Source: Acidimicrobiia bacterium (GTDB taxonomy: Bacteria > Actinomycetota > Acidimicrobiia > Acidimicrobiales > AC-14). Taken from it: a stretch of DNA of 64,000 bases. Below are positions 35,960 to 51,717 of this stretch, piece by piece (within the stretch, counting starts at the first letter, position 1; each line of letters opens with the position of its first letter). Where the stretch lies: positions 62,001-126,000 of the forward strand of contig JAHFUR010000008.1 of NCBI GenBank assembly GCA_023264995.1, in the 5' to 3' direction. Under the pieces are notes generated by a model that was given only the letters and a program-made list of their open reading frames with translations, was not told the DNA's origin and ran no database searches. Both the position numbers and the translations under genes were made by a program.

Positions 35960-37081
35960 ATGGTCAGAGGTCGTCGGGCTCGGAGGGTCGCTCTCACGGC
36001 CCTGGTGACGGTGGGCGCCGGCGCCTTGGCGTTGTCCGGGCCGTCGGGTGCCGACGTGTCCGCCGTGGTGGGCAGCGCCAACGGGTACTTCGCGAGCGTC
36101 GGCCTCTTCGGCGGCCCGCCGTTCGTGACCGGCCCCACCCCCACGGTCGTCCTGCCCGGAGGTGGGTCCGGCGTCCCCGTCACCGCCACGGCGCCCACCG
36201 GCCAAGCCGGCGCCGGTCCCGCCATCTTCTTCTCGTCGGGCCTGATCGGCCTGAGCACGCAAGGACTGCCCGGGCCCAACGGCTCGGTCACCAGTTCGGC
36301 CACCATCACCAACGTCAACCGGCTGGGCGACGAGGTGTTCACTGCGGCCAGCGTGGCCAGCACGTGCACCGCGTCGGAGAGCGGGGGGCGCACCGCTTCC
36401 ACCACCATCCTCAACGGCACCCTGCGCACCGACAGCGGTGACGACAACCACCCGGCGGTGACGGTGCCCATCCCCACCTCTCCGGCCCCCAACACCCAGA
36501 TTGCCGGCCACCTCCACGTGAACGGCAGCCAGGACAACTTCCGGTTCGTCTTCAACGAGCAGGTCCTCAACGGCGACGGCTCCATCACTGTCAACGCCTT
36601 CCACCAGTACTTCCTCGGCCCCACCGCCGTAGGCGACCTGATCGTCGGCCAGTCCCGCTGCGGCGTCACCATCGTGGCCGGCACCACCTCCACCTCCTCG
36701 ACGAGCACGTCCACCTCCACTTCCACTTCCACTTCCACGTCGACGAGCACGTCGACGTCGACGTCGACGAGCACGTCAACGTCCACCAGCACGAGCACGA
36801 CGATGGCGCCGACCACCACCAGCAGCACCACCACGAGTACGAGCACCTCCACCAGCACCTCGACGACCACGAGCTCGACCACGAGCACCACGGTCTCGCC
36901 CAACGCCTGTCGGGCCTCACTCCTGACCACCCGAACGAATATCACCGCCCAGATCAACGCGGCTCGGGCCTCGGTGCTCCGTACGGTGCCCCGCGAGCAG
37001 CAGGCCCCCTACATGGCCGACCTCGACGCCCGGCAGGCCGAAGCCAACGCCGCCATCGATGCGGCCCTGGCTCGCTGCTGA
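35960..37081 (+). CDS. Secreted choice-of-anchor-P-like protein with Thr/Ser linker
   Basis: 373 residues from ATG 35960, with AAGGAG at 35945-35950. Signal region 1-32 (RRARR then a hydrophobic run). One beta-rich domain about 33-230 with SANGYFASVGLFGG, FSSGLIGLSTQGLPG and ASVASTCTASE, including conserved Cys; two copies of the same domain occur in the protein at 44828-46555. Then a Thr/Ser linker (about 237-310) and a short helical C-terminal domain with Cys at both ends. No membrane anchor or sorting signal at the C-terminus. Probably exported and glycosylated. An inverted repeat TTGCA-N7-TGCAA (35930-35946) overlaps the ribosome site. Confidence 0.65.
   Translation: MVRGRRARRVALTALVTVGAGALALSGPSGADVSAVVGSANGYFASVGLFGGPPFVTGPTPTVVLPGGGSGVPVTATAPTGQAGAGPAIFFSSGLIGLSTQGLPGPNGSVTSSATITNVNRLGDEVFTAASVASTCTASESGGRTASTTILNGTLRTDSGDDNHPAVTVPIPTSPAPNTQIAGHLHVNGSQDNFRFVFNEQVLNGDGSITVNAFHQYFLGPTAVGDLIVGQSRCGVTIVAGTTSTSSTSTSTSTSTSTSTSTSTSTSTSTSTSTSTSTSTTMAPTTTSSTTTSTSTSTSTSTTTSSTTSTTVSPNACRASLLTTRTNITAQINAARASVLRTVPREQQAPYMADLDARQAEANAAIDAALARC
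36681..36898 (+). repeat. Low-complexity (ST)n/TTT coding repeat
   Basis: Tandem ACGTCGACx and ACCTCCACx type codon repeats encode the Ser/Thr linker of the choice-of-anchor-P-like protein. The repeat is imperfect at DNA level and in frame. A TMAPTTT interruption is also found in the linker at 50985-51300. Confidence 0.8.
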
Positions 37082-41021: not shown

Positions 41022-42677
41022 TCAGGACCGGATGGCAGTGCCCACCCGCCGGCCGGTGATGAAGAGCTGCTTGTTGTCCTGGACCGAAGGGAACTGGCCG
41101 GGCGTGAAGTACCACTCGTCGAGCACGTCCCTGCGGAACAGCAGGGTCGTCTCCGGGTAGAACAGGGGCAGTACGGGCAGCTCGTCGGCCAGCAACCGCT
41201 GCATCTGGGCCACGACGGCCTGGCGGCCCGCCGGGTCGAACGTCACCCGCTGGGTCTCGGCCAGGTCGTCGAAAGTGGGGTTGGTGAACGCCGACGCGGC
41301 CTGGAGCGACGGCGGCACCTTGGAGGAGAACAGCACCCGCAGCACGTCGGGGTCAGCATTGGGCCCGCCCGGGCCGGGCCCGGGGAAGAACAGGACGGCC
41401 ATGTCGTAGTTGCCGACCAGCTTGCTGCCGAAGAGCTGCGGGCCGATCTCCACCGGCTTGGGCCGCAGCTCCACGCCCACCCGCCGCAGCGACCCGACCA
41501 GGATTTCCGAAAGCGGCGCCTCGGCGTTGCTGATCAGCAGCTCGAAGCTGAGGGCCCCCCGGCCCGGTGCCTGCCGGATCCCGCCGGCGCCCAGGCGGTA
41601 GCCGGCCGAGTCGAGCAGGGCGGCGGCGCCGGCGGGGTCGAAGTCGTACTGGCGGACCGCGGCAAAGAACGGGTTCGCCGGGCTCAGGAACCCCGGGCTG
41701 CCGGGGAGGCCCCGGCCGGCGGCCAGGCGGTCGACCAGGTCCTTGCGGTCGATGGCCATGGCGCAGGCCCGGCGGAACCGCACGTCGGAGAGCGGGCCCT
41801 CCTTGATCATGTTCCAGTAGAGCGGGAGGGTGGTGGAGCCTTGCTCGGCCACCATCCCGTAGGCCTGGCCCTGGAACGGGGCCAGGGTGTCGGCCCGCAG
41901 CCCGACGCCCCGGGCCACGTCGACGTTCCCCGCGGCCAGGCCGGCGATCGGGTCATCGATGGCCCGCTCCTCGATCCGCTTGATGTAGGGCGGGCCCAGG
42001 AAGTAGTCGGGGCGGGCGGTGTAGAGCAGGGCTCCCCCGTCGCCGTTGTACGACGCCAGCCGGTAGGCCCCGGAGCCGACCAGCACCTTCCGGTGGTCCT
42101 GGGCCGCCGGGTCCTTGATGGTGGACCAGACATGGCGCGGGATGATCGGGAGCGCGCCGGCGACCTGCTCGAGGAAGGTGACCTGCGGGCTGGCCAGGGT
42201 GACGACGACGGTGGTCGGGCCCGCGGCCCGGACGCCGGCGATGCCCTTCGGCGGCTGGATGATGACCGGCGGCGCCAGCGTCTCCTGGGCGGCGTAGTAG
42301 TCGAAGGTGAAGACCACGTCGTCGGCGGTAAGGGGCCGGCCGTCGGCCCAGGTCAGGCCGGGCCGCAGTTCGAAGGTGTAGGTGAGGTGGTCGGCCGATG
42401 CGTCGACCCGCTGGGCCAACCACGGCAACAGCGCGCCGCTGGCGTCCTTCCACACCAGGGTGTCGTAGATCAGGCTCATCTGGTTGTACCCGATGTCGGC
42501 GTTGCACGCGAACGGCGACGGGAAGCCGGTGGCGCCCTGGGCCAGGCGCACGGTGGGGCCGCGGGCCTGGTCGACCGCCGGCGTCGACCGGCACGCCGAC
42601 CCGAGGACGAGGGCCCCCACCCCCCCGAGCGACCCGAGGAGGAACCGCCGGCGGTCGATGAGGAGCCCGTCCTTCAT
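41022..42677 (-). CDS. Oligopeptide ABC transporter substrate-binding lipoprotein (SBP family 5)
   Basis: 551 residues from ATG 42677, which lies inside a hairpin. The N-terminus holds a twin-Arg IDRRRFLLG and lipobox VLGSAC (Cys29), so Tat or Sec export and lipid anchoring are likely. The family 5 landmarks follow: TYTFELRPGLTWADGRPLTADDVVF, a conserved RKVLVGSGAYRLASY region and NPTFDDL near the C-terminus. It captures peptides or nickel-type ligands for the two permeases and the fused ATPase of the same strand. Last gene of the operon; the hairpin at the junction may set its mRNA level. Confidence 0.9.
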   Translation of the reverse strand: MKDGLLIDRRRFLLGSLGGVGALVLGSACRSTPAVDQARGPTVRLAQGATGFPSPFACNADIGYNQMSLIYDTLVWKDASGALLPWLAQRVDASADHLTYTFELRPGLTWADGRPLTADDVVFTFDYYAAQETLAPPVIIQPPKGIAGVRAAGPTTVVVTLASPQVTFLEQVAGALPIIPRHVWSTIKDPAAQDHRKVLVGSGAYRLASYNGDGGALLYTARPDYFLGPPYIKRIEERAIDDPIAGLAAGNVDVARGVGLRADTLAPFQGQAYGMVAEQGSTTLPLYWNMIKEGPLSDVRFRRACAMAIDRKDLVDRLAAGRGLPGSPGFLSPANPFFAAVRQYDFDPAGAAALLDSAGYRLGAGGIRQAPGRGALSFELLISNAEAPLSEILVGSLRRVGVELRPKPVEIGPQLFGSKLVGNYDMAVLFFPGPGPGGPNADPDVLRVLFSSKVPPSLQAASAFTNPTFDDLAETQRVTFDPAGRQAVVAQMQRLLADELPVLPLFYPETTLLFRRDVLDEWYFTPGQFPSVQDNKQLFITGRRVGTAIRS

Positions 42678-42700
42678 GACCGGCCTCCCGGGCCGGTCAT
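42676..42700. repeat. Perfect 10-bp hairpin at permease/SBP junction
   Basis: ATGACCGGCC (42676-42685), loop TCCCG, GGCCGGTCAT (42691-42700): a perfect stem. On the minus strand it carries the TGA stop of the permease and the ATG of the substrate-binding gene. The same GACCGGCC-loop-GGCCGGTC core ends each unit of the tandem repeat at 43606-43805. Confidence 0.9.
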
Positions 42701-43611
42701 GACGGGGACTGGGAGCGCGGGTTGAAGACGGGCTCGAGGGCCACGCCCACGACGGTGAGGGCCAGGAGGGTGAGCGTGAGGACAAGCCCCACCGGCAGCA
42801 CCCACCACACCCACATCGGGCTCAGGTAGATGGACTGCTGGCCCAGCGCCCGGTTCAGCATCAGCCCCCAGCTGATGCCGCTGGGGTCGCCCAGGCCGAG
42901 GAACGTCAGGCCCGCCTCCAACCCCACGGCCACACTGGCCCAGTTCACGAACCCGACGATGATCAGCGGGGCCAGGCCGGGCAGGAAATGCCGGCGCAGC
43001 ACGTAGGTCGGCCCGCCCCCGAAGCCCCGGGCCGAGGCCACGAAGCCGCGCTGGCGCAGAGTGACCGCCTGGCTGCGCAGCGTGCGGGCGTTGGGCGGGG
43101 CTCCGAGGACGGCGATCACGATAATGACCGCCACCCGGCTGTTGAGGGCGAGCGACCCGAGAAGGACCAGGAGGGGGGCGCCGGGCAGGGCGAGGAGGAA
43201 CGTGACGAAGCGGTTCGACGCCCGGTCGGCGACGCCGCCCACCAGCGCCGGCAGGACACCGAGCACGATGGCGCCGGCCATGGCCAACGACCCGGCCACG
43301 GCGGCGACGGTGAGGGAGGCCCGGGCCCCGTAGACCAGTTGGGCGAAGATGTCGCGCCCCGGGACATCGGTGCCGAGCCAGTGCCGGGCCGACGGCTGCT
43401 CGAGGGCCCGGCCGGCGCTGGCGTTGCGGGGGTCGTACGGCGTGAGGAGAGGGGCGAACACGGCGACGAGCACGACGATGCCGAGCACCACCAGGCCGGC
43501 GGTGAGCATCGGGGAGCGGGCACGCCGGCGGCCGGGGCCACCGCGGTCGTCGCGTTCGTCGGGAGCCAGGGGCAGGGTGATGTCGCCCGGCACGCTGACG
43601 GCCTCGGTCAC
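42697..43611 (-). CDS. Peptide ABC transporter permease (DppC/OppC-like)
   Basis: 304 residues from GTG 43611. Five to six membrane helices; the first is about 38-58. The cytoplasmic loop consensus for these permeases appears in SARGFGGGPTYVLRRHFLPG (about residues 190-210), the EAA-type motif that contacts the ATPase. An N-terminal region with PSARHWLGTDVPGRDIFAQ is typical of DppC. It pairs with the DppB-like permease upstream, separated by three 65-bp repeats. Translation starts at the edge of the first repeat copy. Confidence 0.9.
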   Translation of the reverse strand: MTEAVSVPGDITLPLAPDERDDRGGPGRRRARSPMLTAGLVVLGIVVLVAVFAPLLTPYDPRNASAGRALEQPSARHWLGTDVPGRDIFAQLVYGARASLTVAAVAGSLAMAGAIVLGVLPALVGGVADRASNRFVTFLLALPGAPLLVLLGSLALNSRVAVIIVIAVLGAPPNARTLRSQAVTLRQRGFVASARGFGGGPTYVLRRHFLPGLAPLIIVGFVNWASVAVGLEAGLTFLGLGDPSGISWGLMLNRALGQQSIYLSPMWVWWVLPVGLVLTLTLLALTVVGVALEPVFNPRSQSPS

Positions 43612-43805
43612 TGGTCCACCCTCATCGAGGGATGGCCCAGTGAATGCTCGATGGACCGGCCTCCCGGGCCGGTCACTGGTCCACCCTCATCGAGGGATGG
43701 CCCAGTGAATGCTCGATGGACCGGCCTCCCGGGCCGGTCACTGGTCCACCCTCATCGAGGGATGGCCCAGTGAATGCTCGATGGACCGGCCTCCCGGGCC
43801 GGTCA
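43606..43805. repeat. 65-bp tandem repeat, three copies plus start of a fourth
   Basis: Three near-identical 65-bp units begin at 43606, 43671 and 43736, with GGTCA of a fourth at 43801. Each unit folds into two hairpins: CACTGG pairing with CCAGTG around an inner CCCT/AGGG stem, and GACCGGCC pairing with GGCCGGTC. It fills the 191-bp gap between the DppB- and DppC-like genes. 65 is not a multiple of three, and no gene is encoded. Confidence 0.95.
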
Positions 43806-44855
43806 TGCCGGCGCCGCCCGCGGGTCGAGCCGGCGGTACAGGACCTCGGCCAGGGCGTTGACCGTGACCACGCTCAGGCTGAGCACCAGGAACACGCCCT
43901 GGATCGTCGGGTAGTCACGCAGGCCGATGGACTGGAAGAGGAGGCCGCCCAGCCCGGGATAGGAGAAGATGCGCTCGACGAACACGTTGGCGGCGACGGC
44001 GGACCCGAGCTCGACCGCGGTGAGGCCGACCACGGGAAGGAGCGCGTTGCGGGCCGCGTACGCGTACTTGAGCCGCCGGGGCCGCAGGCCCTTGGCCCGC
44101 CCCAGGAGCAGGTAGTCGGCCCCGAGCTCGTTCACCATGCCCGCCCGCATCACCAGGTAGCTGATGGCGGTGAGCCCGGCGGTGAGGACGGCCAGCGGCA
44201 GCACGAGGTGGGCACCGATGTCGACGGCGCGCCGGACCGGGCCGAACGACGAGAACTGCGCCTCGGCGCCGGCGACTGGGAACCAGTGCAGCCTCACTGC
44301 GAACACGAACAGGGCCATCGACCCGAGCAGGTAGGGCGGGAACTGCCACACCGTCACCATGGTGGCCAGCAGGGCGCGGTCGACGGGCTTGTCGCGCCGC
44401 CACCCGGAATGGATGCCGGCCACCATCCCGAGCGCGGTGGCCAGGACCACCGAGCTACCGGTGAGGAGGAGCGTCCACGGCAGGCGCCGGCGGAGCTCGG
44501 TGGTGACGGGCGCATTGGTCTGGATGGAGCGCCCGAGGTCGCCGTGGGCCAGCCGCGAGAGGTAGTGCCGGTACTGGGCCACGAGCGAGCCGTCGAGGTC
44601 GTAGTAGGAGACCAGCGAGCTCCGGGCCGCCTCGCCCAGGCTGAACCCGGCCGGCCCGTTGACGAGGAGCCCGTCGATGGGGTCGCCCGGCATGGCTCGG
44701 GGGAGCCAGAAGTTCAGGGTGACCAGGGCGAAGACCATGACCAGGTACGACGCCAGCGCGCCCCGCCGGCGACGACGGGGGCCCGCCGCCGCCGGTGCGG
44801 CCGGCGCCGCCGGCGCTGGCTCCAGGCTCAGCGCAGGGGCCCCCGTACCGGCCAC
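43803..44855 (-). CDS. Peptide ABC transporter permease (DppB/OppB-like)
   Basis: 350 residues from GTG 44855, overlapping the preceding gene's last 28 bp. Pro/Ala-rich N-terminus, then a first helix (LVMVFALVTLNFWLPRAMPGDP). The EAA loop appears as LLLGRAKGLRPRRLKYAYAARNALLP (about 255-280). A large periplasmic loop with GEAARSSLVSYYDLDGSL and SIQTNAPV is typical of DppB. It ends at the beginning of the repeat region. An alternative start is the internal ATG of VMVFALV. With DppC and the fused ATPase it forms a complete importer. Confidence 0.85.
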   Translation of the reverse strand: MAGTGAPALSLEPAPAAPAAPAAAGPRRRRRGALASYLVMVFALVTLNFWLPRAMPGDPIDGLLVNGPAGFSLGEAARSSLVSYYDLDGSLVAQYRHYLSRLAHGDLGRSIQTNAPVTTELRRRLPWTLLLTGSSVVLATALGMVAGIHSGWRRDKPVDRALLATMVTVWQFPPYLLGSMALFVFAVRLHWFPVAGAEAQFSSFGPVRRAVDIGAHLVLPLAVLTAGLTAISYLVMRAGMVNELGADYLLLGRAKGLRPRRLKYAYAARNALLPVVGLTAVELGSAVAANVFVERIFSYPGLGGLLFQSIGLRDYPTIQGVFLVLSLSVVTVNALAEVLYRRLDPRAAPA

Positions 44856-46555
44856 GGCATATGGCGACCGGGCCGGTGGCGCCACCGGACGCCGGCGGCC
44901 CAGAACATCGTGCTCCAGCCGGCCATGACGAGGAGCATGGCCAGGGCCACGAAGACGGCGATGGCACTGCCGGTGCCGGCCAGTCCCCCGCCGCCGGTCC
45001 CGCCACCGGTCCCGCCGGTCTGGCCACCCCCGCCAGTGCCACCGGTGCCGGTGGCCACCGCCGTCGTGGCGCAGCGGGACTGGCCGACGATGAGCTCGCC
45101 CACCGCCGTGGGGCCGAGGAGGAACAGGTGGACCGCATTGACGGTGATCGATCCCGTCCCCCGCACCTGCTCGTTCAGCACGACGCGGAAGGTGTCGCCG
45201 ACGTTCTCGAGCTTGCCGTTGTAGGACGTGTTGGGCGCCGGGTCGGAGGGAAGCTGGACCACGGTGTCGTCGGCCGTGGAATCGAAGTTGGCGCCCTGGG
45301 AGAGGACCACGTTGCCGGCGCTCACCGTCGCCGAGCCGGTCTGGCCGGTGGAGGAGGACGAACACCGGCTCGAGACCGAGGCCGCGGTGAGCTGCTCCTG
45401 GCCGGAGCGGTTCACGTTGGTGACCGTGGCCGAGCTGGTCACCGTGCCGCCAGCGACGCCCTGGGTGCTCACGTCCAGCCGGCCCGAGCTGAAGATGATG
45501 GCCGGGCCGAACTGGGCGGTGGCATCGGGCGCGGTCCCGGTGACCGGCGCCGCGGACCCCCCTGCCGGCAAGGACACCGTCGGTGCCGGCCCGCGGGTGG
45601 CGGGCGCGCCTCCGAAGAGCCCGACGGTCACGAAGTAGCCGTAGGCGCCGCCGGCGACCCCCGTGGTCGTCGCGGTCGTGGTCGTGGTGGTGGGCACGGT
45701 CGTGGTCGTGGTGGCGGCCGTCGTGCTGGTCGTGGTGGTCGACGACGTGGTCGTGGTCGGGGCGGTGGTCGTGGTCGTGGCGCCCGGCGTGGTGGTGGTG
45801 GTCGTCAGGCCCGTGGTGGTGGTCGTGGCCGCGACCGCCGTGACACCGCACACCGATTGGGCGATGAGCAGGTCACCCTTGGCCGTGGGCCCGAGCAGGT
45901 ACAGGTGGGCGGCGGTGACCGTGATCGAGCCGTCTGAGTTCGTCACCTGCTCGTTGAAGACCATACGGAAGGTGTCCCCCACCCCCTCGATCATGCCGTT
46001 GTACGACGTGTTCGGCGCCGGGCTGGCCGGTACCGGGACGACGACGTCGTCACCGTCCACGTTGGGGTTGCCCTCCGAGGTACGGAGCGTGCCGGTCGTG
46101 ACGGTGGTGGACCCGGTCACACCGGACTCGCCGGCGCTGCACCGGCTCGACACGCCGGCGGCAGTGAAGACCTCTGACCCCGAGGTGTTCACATTCTGGA
46201 TAGTGGCGGCGGAGGTGACTGCGCCGCCGGCGCCGAGGGCGCCTTGGGTGCTGACGTTCAGCGGCCCGGAGCTGAACAGGGTGGCCGGGCCGTACTTCAC
46301 CAGCCCGGTGGCCGCGGTGTTCGTCACGGCCGGGCCCCCGTTGGCCGGCAGCGTGGCCGTGGGGGTCGGGCCCACGGGCGCCTGGGCGCCGTTGAAGATG
46401 GTGATGTTGGTGGCCAGGTACCCGAAGGCGCTCCCCCGGACCGCTGTCACATCGGCCGTTGCCGCCGGCGGCGACCCGATGCCGGTCAGCACCCCGGCAA
46501 TGACGAGCGAGACCACCGCCCACGCCCGGTACCCGCGAGATCGTCCACGCCCCAT
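44828..46555 (-). CDS. Two-domain choice-of-anchor-P-like surface protein with LAXTG sorting signal
   Basis: 575 residues from ATG 46555, with GGAGG upstream. Signal region 1-33. Domain 1 about 34-240 and domain 2 about 305-490 are homologous to each other and to the protein at 35960 (GSAFGYLATNITIFNG and GGAYGYFVTVGLFGG; SSRCS). They are joined by a Thr linker. A Gly-rich stretch leads to LAGTG (525-529), a hydrophobic run and a basic tail: the pattern of a class E (LAXTG) sortase substrate. It is likely cell-wall anchored. No sortase gene is in the window. It sits upstream of the permease genes, unusual for such an operon. Confidence 0.7.
   Translation of the reverse strand: MGRGRSRGYRAWAVVSLVIAGVLTGIGSPPAATADVTAVRGSAFGYLATNITIFNGAQAPVGPTPTATLPANGGPAVTNTAATGLVKYGPATLFSSGPLNVSTQGALGAGGAVTSAATIQNVNTSGSEVFTAAGVSSRCSAGESGVTGSTTVTTGTLRTSEGNPNVDGDDVVVPVPASPAPNTSYNGMIEGVGDTFRMVFNEQVTNSDGSITVTAAHLYLLGPTAKGDLLIAQSVCGVTAVAATTTTTGLTTTTTTPGATTTTTAPTTTTSSTTTTSTTAATTTTTVPTTTTTTATTTGVAGGAYGYFVTVGLFGGAPATRGPAPTVSLPAGGSAAPVTGTAPDATAQFGPAIIFSSGRLDVSTQGVAGGTVTSSATVTNVNRSGQEQLTAASVSSRCSSSSTGQTGSATVSAGNVVLSQGANFDSTADDTVVQLPSDPAPNTSYNGKLENVGDTFRVVLNEQVRGTGSITVNAVHLFLLGPTAVGELIVGQSRCATTAVATGTGGTGGGGQTGGTGGGTGGGGLAGTGSAIAVFVALAMLLVMAGWSTMFWAAGVRWRHRPGRHMPWPVRGPLR
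45655..45845 (-). repeat. Low-complexity Thr-codon repeat
   Basis: Imperfect ACG/ACC repeats on the minus strand encode the Thr-rich linker between the two domains of the 44828-46555 protein. In frame and coding; not a CRISPR or satellite. Confidence 0.7.
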
Positions 46556-50295: not shown

Positions 50296-51717
50296 ATGGC
50301 AGGACTACCGGCTGTGAGGCAAGTGCGGACGGGCCCGAGGATCCGACGGCTGCTCGTCGTCATCGCCATGGTCGGCGCCCTGCTCAACCTGAGCTCCGGT
50401 AAGTCCTTCGCCACCCAGTTCTGCAACACCACACCGATCATCGGCACGTCGGGGAGCGGGGCGGCCAGCCCCTACCCGTCCACCATCACCGTGTCCGGGC
50501 TGTCCGGCACGATCACCGACGTCAACATCATCCTGCGCGGGTTCACCACCCACCCGGACAACAACAGCCCCGGCCAGCACTGGGCGGAGGACATCGACGT
50601 TCTCGTTGCCGCACCTGACAGCTCCAACGCCATCGTGATGTCCGACGCCGGCGGCGACAACAACGTCTCCTCCGGCGCCGTCACCAACGTCGACCTCACC
50701 CTCGACGACCAGGCCGCCAACCAGCTCCCGGCCGATTCGCACCTGTCCGCCGGGTCCTGGCGCCCGGTCAACGACAACGACGACATCGACCCCCAGCAGT
50801 CGCCGGACGACCTGTGGCCGTCGCCGGCGCCGGCACCCTCCGGCGCCGTGGCGCTGACCACGTTCAACGGCAAGGACCCCAACGGCGTGTGGAGCCTGTT
50901 CGTCACCGACGACTACGTACAGGCCTCCTCTGATTTCAGCGGCGGCTGGTGCATCGACATCCTCACCACTGGCGGAGGCACGACGACCACCCCGACCACG
51001 GCCCCGACCACCTCGACCAGCACGTCGACCTCGACGAGCACGAGCACCTCGACCTCCACGTCGACATCGACATCGACCAGCACCTCGACGTCCACGTCGA
51101 CCACGATGGCCCCGACCACCACGTCGACCTCGACGTCCACCAGCACCTCGACGTCGACATCGACATCCACCTCGACCTCCACCAGCACGTCGACCTCCAC
51201 CAGCACGTCGACGTCGACGACGATGGCGCCGACCAGCACCTCGACTTCAACGCCCCCCAGCACCTCGACGTCGACGACCTCGACCACGCTGCCGCCCACC
51301 ACGGTCTGCAGCGCGCCGCCGCCGGCCACCATCCTCGCCCAGCCCGGCGTGACGACCTTCGGCACCGATGGTGACGACGTGATCTACGGCACGTCCGGGA
51401 CCGACCGCATCTTCGGCCTGGGCGGCAACGACATCATCGTCGGCTTCGGCGGTGACGACCAGCTCATCGGTGGCGACGGGAACGACGCCCTCTGCGGCGG
51501 CGACGGCAACGACCAGCTCTACGGCGACGCCGGAAACGACCTGCTCGTCGGCGACGCCGGCAACGACAGCCTCGTCGGCGGCTCCGACGACGACCGCCTC
51601 ATCGGCGGCACCGGGCTCGACCGTCTGTCCGGCTCCTCAGGCGTCGACACCTGCAACGCCGGCGGCAGCCCCGGTGACTTCTCGGCGCCAGCGCCGGACT
51701 GCGACACGATCACCTAG
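50296..51717 (+). CDS. Secreted P-domain-like / RTX-repeat protein with Ser/Thr linker
   Basis: 473 residues from ATG 50296, preceded by AGGGG. Signal peptide about 1-35. Residues 36-215 form a jelly-roll resembling the proprotein convertase P domain (TITDVNIILRGFTTH, DIDVLVAAPDSS, GVWSLFVTDDY). A Ser/Thr linker follows (about 220-340), with TMAPT interruptions shared with the protein at 35960. Residues 355-465 hold repeats of the GGxGND type (GGNDIIVGFGGDDQLIGGDGND), which bind calcium in RTX proteins. No protease catalytic domain. Probably a secreted, calcium-binding surface or matrix protein. Confidence 0.75.
   Translation: MAGLPAVRQVRTGPRIRRLLVVIAMVGALLNLSSGKSFATQFCNTTPIIGTSGSGAASPYPSTITVSGLSGTITDVNIILRGFTTHPDNNSPGQHWAEDIDVLVAAPDSSNAIVMSDAGGDNNVSSGAVTNVDLTLDDQAANQLPADSHLSAGSWRPVNDNDDIDPQQSPDDLWPSPAPAPSGAVALTTFNGKDPNGVWSLFVTDDYVQASSDFSGGWCIDILTTGGGTTTTPTTAPTTSTSTSTSTSTSTSTSTSTSTSTSTSTSTSTTMAPTTTSTSTSTSTSTSTSTSTSTSTSTSTSTSTSTSTTMAPTSTSTSTPPSTSTSTTSTTLPPTTVCSAPPPATILAQPGVTTFGTDGDDVIYGTSGTDRIFGLGGNDIIVGFGGDDQLIGGDGNDALCGGDGNDQLYGDAGNDLLVGDAGNDSLVGGSDDDRLIGGTGLDRLSGSSGVDTCNAGGSPGDFSAPAPDCDTIT
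50985..51300 (+). repeat. Low-complexity (ST)n coding repeat
   Basis: Repeats of ACGTCGACC/ACCTCGACC type encode the linker of the P-domain/RTX protein. ATGGCCCCGACC and ATGGCGCCGACC (TMAPT) interruptions recur twice and also in 36681-36898, indicating expansion or exchange between loci. Confidence 0.8.

Follow-up and report, generated by a model that had tools for sequence, protein, structure and literature searches.

A perfect 65-bp triplication at the dppB/dppC junction of an Acidimicrobiales genome: probable tandem copies of a dispersed, MIRU-like element found at stop/start overlaps

We have analyzed a window of 64,000 nucleotides (the whole stretch presented above, to which all coordinates refer) that carries a dpp-like gene cluster on the minus strand. 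Following the direction of the genes, and according to Pfam, the order is a dppB-like permease, a repeat array, a dppC-like permease and a dppA-like binding protein; the reading frames are mechanical calls. The dppB-like gene (BPD_transp_1) spans 43803–44789, with its stop codon at 43803–43805 and an approximate start, the dppC-like gene (BPD_transp_1, OppC_N) spans 42697–43611 and starts with GTG, and the gene of the dppA-like solute-binding protein (SBP_bac_5) covers 41022–42677, with an ATG start at 42677. A sequence-only reading of this DNA had noticed a 65-bp tandem triplication filling the gap between the two permease genes. The triplication is genuine, the gene identities agree with Pfam, and the array (43611–43805) not only fills the gap but also overlaps the junction at both ends. 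Unit 1 (43741–43805) adjoins dppB, whose stop codon is the first TGA of the unit, unit 2 occupies 43676–43740, and unit 3 (43611–43675) adjoins dppC. The three units had been called near-identical; they are actually identical. Tandem Repeats Finder delimited the array at 43605–43805 (period 65, 3.1 copies, 100% identity, score 402); no other tandem array in the window comes close to it. A 34-base hairpin core occurs three times in the window versus none in 100 shuffled versions. The count of three units derives from a draft metagenome assembly, in which 195 bp of perfect copies may be miscounted. Other repeats of the window include low-complexity tracts of 6- to 36-bp periods inside long open frames (36700–36900, 45670–45840 and 51000–51280), for example a threonine-rich linker in the frame at 44828–46555, which has no Pfam match.

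The units had also been described as not coding, and this was only partly right: each one contains an open frame of 22 codons that overlaps the frames at its sides. The 3' end of dppB reads GCA TGA, and the preceding A makes an ATGA from whose ATG the first frame opens. This mini-ORF 1 (43738–43806, minus strand, like all features that follow) codes for MTGPGGRSIEHSLGHPSMRVDQ* and its TGA overlaps the GTG of the next. Mini-ORF 2 (43673–43741) starts at the GTG within that GTGA overlap and encodes the same peptide except for a V as first residue, and mini-ORF 3 (43608–43676) ends in a TGA that overlaps the GTG start of dppC. The same GTGA overlap thus appears three times, the last one leading into dppC, and the unit length of 65 bases (3 x 21 + 2) fits this chain of stop/start overlaps exactly. 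Each unit can form two hairpins, as had been claimed, with a folding energy of -33.5 kcal/mol on the gene strand (z -2.5). The 5' hairpin of unit 1 (43784–43804) is perfect, GACCGGCC-CGGGA-GGCCGGTC, and is repeated at 43719–43739 and 43654–43674. The 3' hairpin of unit 1 (43738–43773, repeated at 43673–43708 and 43608–43643) is long, TCACTGG...CCAGTGA, and pairs with the start codon that follows. A half-length copy, TGACCGGCCCGGGAGGCCGGTC, is found at the dppC/dppA junction (42674–42700), where an 8-codon mini-ORF, MTGPGGRS*, bridges the dppC stop (ATGA) to the dppA ATG (ATGA).

The array is not specific to dpp but belongs to a dispersed family. The draft genome from which the window comes (3.8 Mb, 81 contigs) contains 37 DNA matches to the array. 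Allowing up to 3 mismatches, a 22-base core matched there 55 times and the reversed control twice. With no more than 1 mismatch allowed, two genomes of the same genus had 18 and 26 core matches and two genomes from the same family had 1 and 6, and in the remainder of 60 genomes one-mismatch cores were few. Among named records, the element is present in the Acidimicrobiales/Acidimicrobiia MAGs AVDCRST_MAG10, nzgw82 and nzgw83, and at three loci of nzgw85, deposited as Actinomycetes. There is also a single, isolated exact match to a 23-base core in the non-acidimicrobial genome of Actinomadura parmotrematis. With a covariance model, 8 out of 298 genomes from the order Acidimicrobiales were found to carry the element; they include two further families with divergent copies (16, 4 and 2 matches), which mostly keep the same design, i.e., a DTGA start (D being A, G or T), a VTGPGGRS mini-ORF and 68, 65 or 50 bases. 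Outside the order, the model had no match in the 395 genomes of the class and 396 of the phylum that were sampled. The search of the window against Rfam 15 gave no match at the gathering threshold, and an exact scan of IMG/VR with the 22-base core found none either, so that there is no sign of a phage carrier.

Across the family the orientation of the element follows that of the genes. The sites are operonic stop/start overlaps in which the upstream stop is (A/G/T)TGA, and a TGA is left at both ends. The mini-ORF ([M/V]TGPGGRS...) starts on the upstream stop, and its own TGA overlaps the GTG or ATG of the next gene. In five genomes the 5' end was DTGA in 77 of 82 loci (GTGA 48, ATGA 27, TTGA 2) and never CTGA, while C precedes the stop in 84 of 302 (28%) element-free long open frames ending in TGA; the absence of CTGA would have a probability of 0.72^77, about 1e-11, if the loci are treated as independent in spite of the relatedness of the copies. 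Considering open frames of 90 codons or more, 71 of the 82 loci had one upstream that ended exactly at the TGA of the element, 57 had one downstream that started at the DTGA where the mini-ORF ends, and 50 had both. The 3' end of each unit was set by the palindrome irrespective of frame, as a stem closing on any TGA; setting it by the longest stem was dropped as too crude, since that stem was often paired with the next unit or was an inner one. With these ends, the length was 2 modulo 3 in 61 of 74 distinct units (p 5e-18, uncorrected for the relatedness of the copies), including all the common lengths (50, 59, 62, 65 and 68), and in this way the stop/start chain of the mini-ORF is kept. The other 13 violate the rule, some of them through a mis-set 3' end. 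A Shine-Dalgarno-like core precedes the downstream start in 35 of 61 units. At 13–14 loci a truncated element is fused in frame to the downstream protein, as in ArgD or PyrD, which indicates that the full cassette is not required. The truncated copy at argD is now the N-terminus of the protein (VTGPGGQSVNPTYLMG..., at G000:C59:9166-). PyrD (C59:35383) and some ten further genes have similar in-frame fusions, cases of sequence from a mobile element extending a protein.

The comparison with close relatives provided empty sites. In both congeners the homologous dppB/dppC junctions (48% identity) overlap directly as GTGA and lack the array. Further dppBC pairs, paralogous or more distant, have ATGA or GTGA overlaps or a short gap. 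In the arg operon of the window's own genome (the names of arg, car and pyr genes were read from the protein sequences) two junctions, argC/argJ and argJ/argB, hold an element and argB/argD holds a truncated one, whereas one congener (G001) has a bare ATGA at all three junctions with matching flanks (GTCTACCCATGAGCG...; ...TCATGAG...). When filled and empty arg sites were compared, the duplicated sequence was TGA. At argJ/argB the other congener (G002:C160) has a different insert, flanked by GTGAGTGGGC at both ends and located on the stop/start overlap. In the sister genus (G003) a repeat at the arg junctions was considered as a second coupling element and rejected, being a larger, intergenic palindrome mostly off DTGA overlaps. 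This GC-rich repeat (GGGTCCTGTCCCTCAGGGTCCCTCCC...CCTCCCTACGGGCCACCC) is dispersed in that genus (G003:C20 and others), mostly between genes, and a copy of its type exists in the window's genome (G000:C61:18292). The three congeners have only about five occupied loci whose positions are clearly orthologous or homologous. Arrays range from one to four units, and the number differs between species at carB-pyrD (one truncated unit versus four) and at dppBC (three versus none). Copy number is thus not fixed, and the earlier suggestion of recent amplification with copy-number change is borne out by these differences together with the identity of the dppBC units.

Both hairpins recur across family members. 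In the 68-base class (21 units), 90.7% of the cells are paired in the two-hairpin structure, with which the 50-base class agrees. Nine pairs have changed on both sides, and the cells with such changes number 28, versus 6.9 in shuffled and 4–7 in slid structures. The covariation is clear in the 3' hairpin, which includes the downstream start codon: the pair that holds the first base of this codon switches from C-G (GTG) to U-A (ATG). The same was seen in an orthologous pair of loci (G001:C74 and G002:C50), where TCAC/GTGA in one and TCAT/ATGA in the other are kept while the start switches between GTG and ATG. In helix 2, G-U pairs outnumber A-C on the gene strand (30 versus 5), which points to the sense strand, most simply the mRNA, as the molecule that folds. 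Local folding gave a predicted unpaired probability of about 0 for the dppC start with one to three units, and a more open start at the joined empty site and at the empty sites of two relatives.

Target, frame, structure and turnover can all be read from the genomes, and from them we infer how ribosomes would be handed over along the array. We consider it probable that the dpp array arose by local tandem duplication of one copy of a small, dispersed, MIRU-type element, whose insertion is tolerated via termination-reinitiation through the mini-ORFs. A ribosome finishing dppB would re-initiate on mini-ORF 1, read its 22 codons, melt the 3' hairpin in doing so, terminate on the TGA and re-initiate on the overlapping GTG, and this hand-over would be repeated three times until dppC starts. 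The hairpin would hide the dppC start from free ribosomes, and dppC would then depend strictly on the chain of mini-ORFs. Such a self-bridging design would let the element land in operons without cutting off the genes downstream, and it may persist there by restoring the coupling that its own insertion breaks. The tandem expansion would most simply come from slippage or recombination between units. If the hand-over is less than fully efficient, the number of units could act as a dial that lowers dppC relative to dppB, so that copy number may tune dppC translation. An effect of the array on permease stoichiometry, which had been proposed from the start, is plausible. The dispersed and mobile nature of the element, its stop/start target and its coupled mini-ORF are points that the sequence-only reading missed, and with them the evidence favors translation over transcript processing as the level of action.

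The element might be purely selfish, with mini-ORF and hairpins that only make the insertion harmless, a unit number that regulates nothing and arrays that are neutral products of slippage, and we give this a chance only somewhat short of even. Turnover is high, since most sites are not shared by the three congeners, the sites belong to unrelated operons (dpp, arg, pyr and others), and orthologues occur empty as well as filled. However, compensatory changes in orthologous copies have kept the start codon paired long after insertion, which suggests more than the bookkeeping of transposition, although the hairpin could also be needed for the movement of the element. Alternatively, each unit might be an imperfect step of termination-reinitiation, with dppC output falling roughly geometrically along an array selected for dosage. 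The chained GTGA overlaps, the start codon predicted to be fully paired with one to three units and largely open with none, and the variation in unit number, including the one versus four of carB-pyrD, would fit such a rheostat. Nevertheless, arrays are present also in operons where unequal stoichiometry would serve no evident purpose, and the two permease halves of an ABC transporter are usually needed in equal amounts. We regard a selected rheostat as rather unlikely.

The transcript-level role first proposed for the hairpins, i.e., attenuating transcription or processing or stabilising the mRNA between the permease genes, appears improbable. The sense-strand hairpins are strong and the G-U bias indicates that the RNA strand matters, but a terminator and promoter scan found neither kind of site, the window holds no Rfam family, and such a role would leave the 2 modulo 3 lengths and the DTGA target unexplained. 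A palindromic element of the REP/BIME type moved by a Y1 (RAYT) transposase, as could be thought of a short, dispersed and palindromic family with tandem copies, is very improbable and its identity as REP/RAYT was rejected, since the transposase (PF01797) was found in none of 14 genomes (all eight covariance-model carriers included; 5 of 14 control genomes were positive), and the element is directional and sits inside operons at stop/start overlaps.

Among known systems, REP/BIME sequences resemble the element in being short, palindromic, dispersed and sometimes tandem, but REPs are extragenic, while the Acidimicrobiales element lies at stop/start overlaps with an ORF of its own and without a detected Y1 transposase. 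Rickettsia palindromic elements are short and palindromic, are found inside ORFs and have a length that lets reading continue. The Acidimicrobiales element has in common with them a reading-compatible length, and its truncated copies extend ArgD, PyrD and other proteins in frame, but in its full form it lies between ORFs and would couple them. Termination-reinitiation at ATGA or GTGA overlaps acts at the very type of junction into which the element inserts and which it re-creates at its distal end; what differs is that a mobile and repeated cassette adds further coupled mini-ORFs.

The closest likeness is with the MIRUs, on which tuberculosis strain typing rests and which reportedly go back to Supply and co-workers in 1997. 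MIRU units have 40–100 bp and are found at 41 places (PMC2734929), those of senX3-regX3 having 77 and 53 bp (PMC4213456), and a 2025 review describes their insertion at start codons and an ORF coupled with -4 nt spacing, giving the same coupling interpretation (PMC12548453). The published unit of MIRU292 (PMC7977185), when reverse-complemented, runs from ATGA to ATGA over 53 bases with one ORF of 18 codons. The Acidimicrobiales units, with 50–68 bp and tens of dispersed copies, fall in the same size range, are likewise inserted at DTGA stop/start overlaps along the direction of the genes within operons, carry an internal ORF that overlaps both flanking ORFs and would be coupled to the downstream gene by a -4 nt overlap, and form tandem copies varying in number between species; the MIRU lengths of 53 and 77 bp are also 2 modulo 3. 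However, the host belongs to the Acidimicrobiales and is not mycobacterial, in local alignment the sequence matched MIRU292 no better than its shuffles (155 of 500 were as good, one MIRU being compared), and MIRU292 folds little better than its shuffles (z -0.9), whereas the Acidimicrobiales element has two strong, conserved hairpins. In its architecture, the element would therefore work like a MIRU and probably represents a new MIRU-like family, with a descent link absent at the sequence level for the one unit compared. In the open-access literature we found no paper on MIRU-like elements in Acidimicrobiia. More tentatively, and with the odds rather against it, we propose a family independent of MIRUs by sequence in which the hairpin and the start codon hidden by it evolve together, every unit works as a hand-over gated by the ribosome and the number of units is a heritable dial on downstream translation in operons. 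The recurrence of MIRU architecture in another class of actinobacteria, in a family whose sequence is unrelated, suggests that mobile elements able to mend the coupling they break have repeatedly found a niche at the stop/start overlaps of operons. Beyond what MIRU292 offers, this family has a hairpin that covaries around the start codon and congeners with clean empty sites, through which the coupling mechanism can be tested directly.
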